Part shown: positions 59,077 through 59,317 of the stretch, in pieces
Position numbering within the stretch: the first letter of the stretch is position 1
Layout: each line of letters begins with the position of its first letter
Assembly (NCBI RefSeq): GCF_017352135.1
Contig: NZ_CP071454.1
Location: forward strand, 1,459,501 to 1,523,500
Source: Rhizobium lentis
GTDB taxonomy: Bacteria > Pseudomonadota > Alphaproteobacteria > Rhizobiales > Rhizobiaceae
Length of the DNA stretch: 64,000 nt
Direction of reading: 5' to 3'
Position numbers and translations under genes: made by a program
Notes under the pieces: model-generated
What the model saw: the letters and a program-made list of their open reading frames with translations, nothing else
The model's database searches: none
What the model was told of the DNA's origin: nothing

Positions 59077-59107
59077 TTGACCTCAACATTGGTTGAGGTT
59101 TTATAAC
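59077..59107 (+). promoter_or_regulatory. SoxR-regulated promoter with SoxR box
   Basis: TTGACC (59077-59082) and TATAAC (59102-59107) are separated by 19 bp, the MerR-family spacing. The 18-bp SoxR box CCTCAACATTGGTTGAGG fills 59081-59098, overlapping the last two bases of the -35 just as in E. coli soxS. It drives transcription to the right, away from soxR, and may also control soxR. Confidence 0.85.
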
Positions 59108-59113
59108 CCCTCC

Positions 59114-59317
59114 TCCCTCGGCCGTGAAGCCGCGGCGCAGGCAAGAGCGACGGTGAGACCGTCGATCGATACAGGTGAAATGACGACATCGACGCTTGCC
59201 GCCATACCGATCACCCCTGCCGAATAGCCGCCTGAGAGGTGAGCGCTCGGGTTCCGTTCCCGGCAGGTACGGAACCTCGGAAAACACCCGGACAGGACCT
59301 CCGTCCGGGTGTTTTTT
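59114..59317 (+). ncRNA. Putative SoxR-induced structured small RNA
   Basis: The promoter at 59077-59107 predicts a start near 59114. The following ~200 nt contain no convincing gene. They form a hairpin at 59148-59164 (CGACGGT-GAG-ACCGTCG), a hairpin at 59250-59276 (GGTTCCGT/ACGGAACC), and a strong terminator ending near 59317. The loop of the second hairpin (CGGCAGG, 59261-59267) is complementary to CCTGCCG at 59216-59222, allowing a pseudoknot. A mini-ORF, GTG at 59153 to TAG at 59227 (24 residues), is possible. I know of no matching RNA family. Confidence 0.5.
59283..59317 (+). terminator. Rho-independent terminator of the SoxR-induced transcript
   Basis: AACACCCGGAC (59283-59293) pairs with GTCCGGGTGTT (59303-59313) around a 9-nt loop, followed by a run of six T (59312-59317). 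It is a strong intrinsic terminator located before the TPP riboswitch. Confidence 0.92.

Follow-up and report, generated by a model that had tools for sequence, protein, structure and literature searches.

Genomic context of the locus

The window, i.e., the whole 64,000-nucleotide stretch of Rhizobium lentis DNA that was analyzed (contig NZ_CP071454.1, positions 1,459,501 to 1,523,500), contains a regulator gene, a promoter that faces away from it, and a structured region ending in a probable terminator upstream of a TPP riboswitch (Table 1). The regulator belongs to the SoxR family, as its product scores 227.1 bits against the NCBIfam model TIGR01950 (cutoff, 116.9 bits). SoxR proteins bind a [2Fe-2S] center through a C-x2-C-x-C-x5-C cysteine cluster, which was read by eye in the translation as CIGCGCLSIESC.

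SoxR-dependent promoters carry an 18-bp palindrome between the -35 and -10 elements, which are separated by a 19-bp spacer. The window promoter has this geometry, with a -35 element TTGACC, the 18-bp palindrome CCTCAACATTGGTTGAGG, whose first two bases are shared with the -35, then TTT and a -10 element TATAAC. This reading of the sequence bears out the original prediction of a soxS-type promoter with these elements and 19-bp spacing; the promoter does point away from the divergent gene, and that gene does encode SoxR. With zero mismatches, the box pattern CCTCAANNTTNNTTGAGG occurs at two sites only in the 6.4-Mb genome.

TABLE 1 Features of the locus, in window coordinates
Feature	Position	Strand	Description
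soxR (156 aa)	58601..59071	-	TIGR01950 match; start codon 59071-59069; divergent from the RNA
SoxR-dependent promoter	59077..59107	+	-35 at 59077-59082, box at 59081-59098, -10 at 59102-59107; 19-bp spacer
Probable promoter of soxR itself	59100..59129	-	-10 TATAAA at 59105-59100, -35 CTTCAC at 59129-59124
Predicted SoxR-driven transcript	59114..59317	+	Both ends predicted: from 7 nt past the -10 through the last T of the terminator
Decayed FMN-reductase remnant	59131..59242	+	By comparison with relatives; among gene-less clade rows, 91 of 112 columns vary
Hairpin 1	59250..59276	+	Stem GGTTCCG/CGGAACC, 13-nt loop TTCCCGGCAGGTA at 59257-59269; covariation
Hairpin 2 and T6, probable intrinsic terminator	59282..59317	+	11-bp stem within 59282-59314; T6 at 59312-59317
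TPP riboswitch (RF00059)	59396..59509	+	55.9 bits; nearest downstream feature, separate element

The first ~45 nt of the RNA region probably carry the soxR promoter on the opposite strand. Its -35 element reads CTTCAC in the window and CTTTAC in most relatives. Among the 90 loci, the window included, that combine the SoxR box with the loop motif described below, the corresponding plus-strand GTAAAG is present in 87, the window being one of the three without it, and the spacing to TTTATA is 18 nt in 77 of the 78 loci in which both were found. The conservation of these first ~45 nt is therefore at least partly explained by this probable soxR promoter.

Between promoter and terminator, the window holds no intact gene. 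The soxS- or sodB-like partner that such a promoter would lead one to expect had been declared missing, and neither is found there; the partner in relatives is an FMN reductase. Folding of the 75-nt part at 59243-59317 gave -43.3 kcal/mol (z = -5.0), and the 212 nt at 59114-59325 gave z = -2.8. Hairpin 2 is G+C rich and is followed by a T-run, as is characteristic of intrinsic terminators, and the strong terminator proposed at 59283-59317 exists in this form. It has no entry in the terminator scan of the window, probably because its loop exceeds the 8-nt limit of that scan. The proposal of two perfect-stem hairpins fared unequally: the hairpin at 59250-59276 is conserved, whereas the stem GACGGT/ACCGTC at 59149-59163, presumed to be one of the two, is not (50.8% of cells paired, versus 48.6% in shuffles; 10 distinct rows) and was rejected. 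In addition, the remnant has no common fold of note (5 pairs; consensus energy, -2.5 kcal/mol). The conserved RNA is the 3' ~75 nt only, and the middle of the region is decayed coding sequence.

The RNA is the leftover of an FMN reductase mRNA

The origin of the region became apparent from related genomes. Searching the window DNA in 61 genomes gave matches in 26, and in five of these (G011, G014, G026, G027, and G033) the promoter and hairpin pieces lie ~585 to 705 bp apart. The frame between the two pieces is ~190 codons long, and its product is an NADPH-dependent FMN reductase (129.9 bits against PF03358 in G026). Both hairpins follow the stop codon of this gene in the gene-bearing relatives. 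The element therefore sits there as a 3'-UTR-derived small RNA (sRNA) does, within the mRNA 3' UTR and sharing its terminator; in the window, the coding sequence is gone. By comparison with relatives, the old last reductase codons and stop are still readable at 59224-59235 (ATAGCCGCCTGA). The original prediction of a small RNA locus stands in that a SoxR-type promoter leads into a structured RNA, and is to be amended in that the locus is what remains of an FMN-reductase mRNA.

Across the 90 loci, the FMN reductase is intact in 63, counting G084 on the basis of its tblastn match, and lost or broken in 27. Among the latter, 24 have no tblastn match to the reductase, and 3 retain a broken copy (G097, G108, and G129). 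One further genome with a strong match to our covariance model (G069) falls outside the 90 loci, its loop being off the exact pattern. In three loci (L035, L139, and L181, in G011, G130, and G123), a palindromic repeat near the 3' end of the reductase gene alters its last residues.

Beyond the genus, a search of 151 family genomes found 19 homologous reductase genes, 12 of which have a SoxR box 66 to 82 nt upstream. In these 12, the 150 nt past the stop codon never contain the loop, which makes the RNA element look younger than gene and promoter. The pairing of a SoxR promoter with an FMN reductase thus appears to predate the genus. Two gene-less genomes, G000 and G017, were part of this 151-genome search, and no FMN-reductase homologue (E ≤ 1e-30) was found elsewhere in either.

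Conservation and covariation of the two hairpins

Covariation of the stems was assessed in an alignment of 89 sequences, from which G003 was left out because its element lies at a contig end. Two-sided changes occur in 13 of 21 pairs (7 of 11 in hairpin 2), and 96.5% of 1,844 cells pair. None of 500 shuffles reached any of the five measures used, and partners slid along the alignment pair in at most 52.1%. A smaller set of 24 sequences gave a similar picture (two-sided changes in 12 of 21 pairs), and four of the five measures exceeded almost every shuffle. The fifth, the count of further pair types, did not stand out, as 175 of 500 shuffles equaled it. Stem covariation, put forward with the original prediction as its check, is thus present.

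The loop of hairpin 1 is nearly invariant. It spans 13 nt, UUYCYGGCAGGUR, and occurs in 8 variants among the 90 loci, three of which (TTCCCGGCAGGTA, TTTCTGGCAGGTG, and TTTCTGGCAGGTA) account for 83. The stem below it is in part interrupted, with fewer than five uninterrupted pairs from the loop in 16 of 90 rows.

A covariance model of the element matches at 48 bits or more in 89 of 120 sampled genus genomes, and 7 more have weak matches only. Among 297 family and 297 order genomes, for which stricter filters can lose weak matches, strong ones were confined to the window's genus. Consistently, among the 80 matches listed in a GTDB scan with the loop pattern, 26 score at least 53 bits, each under a Rhizobium or Rhizobiales bacterium title, and none of the remaining 54 exceeds 30.6 bits. 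Rfam has no family at the element (best subthreshold scores, 19.8 and 19.0 bits), in keeping with the original prediction, which knew of no matching family; the only Rfam hits in the window are tRNA and TPP, and across the relatives' loci L036, L046, and L048 together with L132, it yields one TPP match only. By the searches made, the element would represent a new RNA family, as well as a new variation on 3'-UTR-derived RNAs.

There is a slim chance that the palindrome is a protein's DNA site or a mobile repeat rather than RNA, as palindromic DNA would suit either. The stems, however, change by compensating pairs around a constant, asymmetric loop. Moreover, each of the 89 genomes has a single strong match, and the window's genome has one exact loop match, which speaks against a dispersed repeat or site.

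A second genomic copy was considered for the weak second model match in G000 and dismissed, since the match is a different two-hairpin 3' element (L132 1501-1588; G000:C1:2843507-2843594) with the loop GGTTTCCTCCAGTTG. By eye, this element lies directly 3' of a CcrM-type DNA methyltransferase-like gene. Four weak model matches that were examined (G000, G017, G098, and G390) are all of this L132 type.

The reductase gene was lost repeatedly while the RNA was kept

To see what remains under constraint once the gene is gone, we compared 11 rows of the window's gene-less clade, leaving out G085, whose remnant is deleted, and including the near-duplicate pair G000 and G094. The decayed remnant varies at most of its columns (Table 1). 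In contrast, only 4 of 29 columns vary in hairpin 1 (59249-59277), with 1 of 13 in its loop, 4 of 31 in the SoxR promoter, and 8 of 30 in hairpin 2; in the spacer past the terminator, 43 of 78 vary. Fisher tests against the remnant gave 2e-11 for hairpin 1, 3e-12 for the SoxR promoter, and 4e-8 for the terminator. Constraint on hairpin 1 has therefore outlived the coding sequence.

The same comparison bears on whether the region encodes a small protein, for example through the 15-codon frame MTTSTLAAIPITPAE (59180-59227), which in the window starts with an ATG preceded at a short distance by AGG. We rejected this as extremely improbable. The frame falls within what was once the reductase C terminus and is not kept in register among close relatives, the region is the highly variable one just described, and the differences within the conserved loop, as read from its variants, show no synonymous pattern in any frame.

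The losses were counted over 85 rows on a soxR tree. The best tree requires 7 changes between intact and lost, and five independent intact/lost pairs are separated by well-supported branches; the tree was built from a single gene by a fast method and leaves 35 of its 86 inner branches open. On this tree, the coding sequence was lost independently at least five times. The scars of deletion also differ: it is almost complete in G085 and internal with the start codon kept in G108, G127, and G129, and G097 has an early frame break.

In all 27 loci with a lost or broken coding sequence, TTGACC and both half-sites of the box are perfect. Since the loci were found via the element, these 27 are biased toward retention. 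A less biased view comes from 37 genus genomes (G000 to G036), in which the gene is absent from 12 loci; the element is retained in 10 of these and missing from 2. Nine of the 37 (G001, G015, G022, G024, G025, G028, G030, G032, and G036) are uninformative, having neither the element nor a close soxR.

Three genomes help to separate the outward promoter from the needs of soxR. At the G034 locus (L032), no soxR lies between the SoxR box and the short-chain dehydrogenase gene, and the soxR -35 has decayed, while TTGACC, the box, the -10, and both hairpins are still present. Conversely, G008 and G029 have a close soxR and lack both reductase and hairpins; there the palindrome is kept, and the outward -35 has departed from TTGACC. 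G008 retains a TATAAT-like -10. These two genomes presumably lost the element, perhaps in one event, rather than never having it. The contrasts, which are few and perhaps dependent, suggest that the RNA, too, is a reason for keeping the outward promoter.

These observations have to be weighed against a purely cis-acting 3' end, with hairpins 1 and 2 terminating and protecting the reductase mRNA and the transcript of gene-less species being a dead relic. The box would then persist because SoxR autoregulates, and the terminator because it keeps read-through out of the TPP-riboswitch operon. The probable soxR promoter overlaps the box, so autoregulation could keep the palindrome, which does survive without hairpins in G008 and G029; in the window the TPP aptamer begins 78 nt past the terminator, and SoxR itself could be kept anyway for another likely target, the monooxygenase gene described below. 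However, the nearly invariant 13-nt loop and its constraint after the coding sequence decayed are left unexplained. The outward -35, which autoregulation should not require, is TTGACC in every gene-less locus with the RNA and is something else in the two without it (perhaps one event), and two gene-bearing loci with both hairpins (L046 and L048) have no TPP riboswitch within the 5 kb examined. On balance, we regard this explanation as rather unlikely.

Given that the coding sequence was lost repeatedly while promoter and hairpin were kept, it is suggested that the RNA itself does something useful. We therefore favor, as the probable reading, that the locus specifies a SoxR-activated noncoding RNA of ~200 nt that descends from a SoxR-controlled FMN-reductase mRNA and whose working part lies at ~59243-59317.

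The T-tract after hairpin 2 may have changed along with gene loss. It reaches at least 5 T (5 or 6) in 15 of the 27 loci with a lost gene versus none of 59 intact loci measured, all 59 having at most 4 T. This association rests on 3 changes on the tree and is not significant in independent tree pairs (4 of 89 rows lack a measurable tail).

The downstream thiamin-precursor operon

Downstream of the element, the TPP riboswitch precedes a thiamin-precursor-type ABC transporter operon (59500-62362; PF00528, PF00005, and NMT1 PF09084). In G026-like relatives, the first gene of this operon is ykoF (PF07615, 202 amino acids). Its counterpart in the window is a 57-amino-acid frame (59500-59673) with the same start and without a Pfam match.

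Because the hairpins lie on the same strand and so close upstream of the aptamer, they could be thought to form, together with the riboswitch, the leader that controls this operon. We consider that very improbable. Both hairpins also occur in L046 and L048, the loci that lack the riboswitch, and a transcript through them should stop at the terminator. Furthermore, a conserved promoter-like stretch can be seen by eye between terminator and aptamer.

Proposed mechanism and search for targets

The two-hairpin domain was found 3' of the reductase only in the window's genus, and we infer that it arose there, behind the reductase gene. Later deletion of the coding sequence in several lineages brought the promoter, a leader remnant, and the 3' domain together. 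In the mechanism considered most likely, redox-active compounds would oxidize SoxR, and oxidized SoxR would in turn activate the promoter with its 19-bp spacer. Either the full RNA or a processed 3' fragment of ~75 nt would then act in trans, the exposed loop UUYCYGGCAGGUR being the putative contact to its partner, by base pairing or protein binding. In gene-bearing species, the reductase mRNA may be the source of the same ~75-nt domain, released at its 3' end.

More tentatively, the SoxR response at this locus may have swapped an enzyme for a 3' UTR several times in parallel, with a trans-acting domain, defined by its fixed 13-nt loop, already active beside the enzyme. We consider this broader scenario possible, with slightly more doubt than belief.

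Candidate targets were sought through complements of the loop, with one mismatch, in 5 genomes, and no conserved one emerged. Their number was slightly above the control in two (11 versus 6 in G000, and 9 versus 7 in G017) and equal to or below it in the other three. At the 4 loci inspected, a recurring one-mismatch variant lies inside coding sequences, at the same place in one gene in G026 and G012 and elsewhere in the other two. Pairing with the 5' UTR of the ABM-domain monooxygenase mRNA looks possible in G000 and is not conserved.

A published transcript catalog was also compared. We take G009 to be R. etli CFN42 with the same coordinates, which would place its locus at 4.094 Mb. Table 1 of PMC4167512 gives 18 novel transcribed regions of R. 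etli, none of them near this position; the stresses given there are heat or salt, and redox stress lies outside the design as there described. Among the titles and abstract openings of the literature surveyed, no SoxR-controlled Rhizobium RNA was named.

Relation to known small RNAs and SoxR targets

Several bacterial sRNAs derive from mRNA 3' UTRs, including CpxQ and SdhX, which consist of a structured mRNA 3' end and use the terminator of the mRNA and its stress promoter. As far as the sequence can tell, the element described here resembles this class in all three respects: structured 3' end, common terminator, and the stress promoter of the mRNA. It differs from the class in that the coding sequence has repeatedly been lost while promoter and 3' RNA were kept. 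It also differs in the short T-tract of the gene-bearing relatives, which counts against an Hfq-type RNA in all species.

Another point of comparison is SgrS/SgrT, a dual-function RNA with coding and regulatory parts, whose coding part can be lost. In contrast to that system, the reductase is a far larger protein, control is by SoxR, and the sequences are unrelated.

As far as we know, ideas on how bacteria acquire new small RNA genes rest mostly on isolated examples. Within the one genus studied here, loci whose coding sequence is intact, half deleted, or fully deleted all share this SoxR promoter, and in two further genomes the RNA is absent and the outward -35 has decayed. This series makes it testable whether a 3' UTR functions apart from its protein. 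The interest of the locus lies in the 3' end of a lost gene being kept under the promoter of that gene; if the favored reading is true, it would add a noncoding output to the SoxR redox response.

The second mismatch-free SoxR box of the genome (L200 1497-1876; G000:C1:461408-461787) is located just upstream of a gene for a 106-amino-acid ABM-domain monooxygenase (PF03992, 24.2 bits; cutoff, 23.1). Known SoxR targets include a flavoprotein reductase in Streptomyces coelicolor and monooxygenases in S. coelicolor and Pseudomonas aeruginosa, according to PMC4146615. The passages concerned name no noncoding RNA target, and the main text of the paper lacks the word noncoding. These two bacteria have no soxS; similarly, an FMN reductase and an ABM-domain monooxygenase lie behind SoxR boxes in Rhizobium.

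Across the 37 genus genomes, the SoxR box of the monooxygenase gene is present in 10 of 10 genomes that lack the reductase and keep the hairpins, and was not found in 9 of 16 gene-bearing ones. Two more SoxR-like paralogues are encoded at G000:C1:3012786-3013217 (63% identity) and G000:C2:718932-719348 (50%), the former adjoined by a SoxR-like box of its own with TTGACC.
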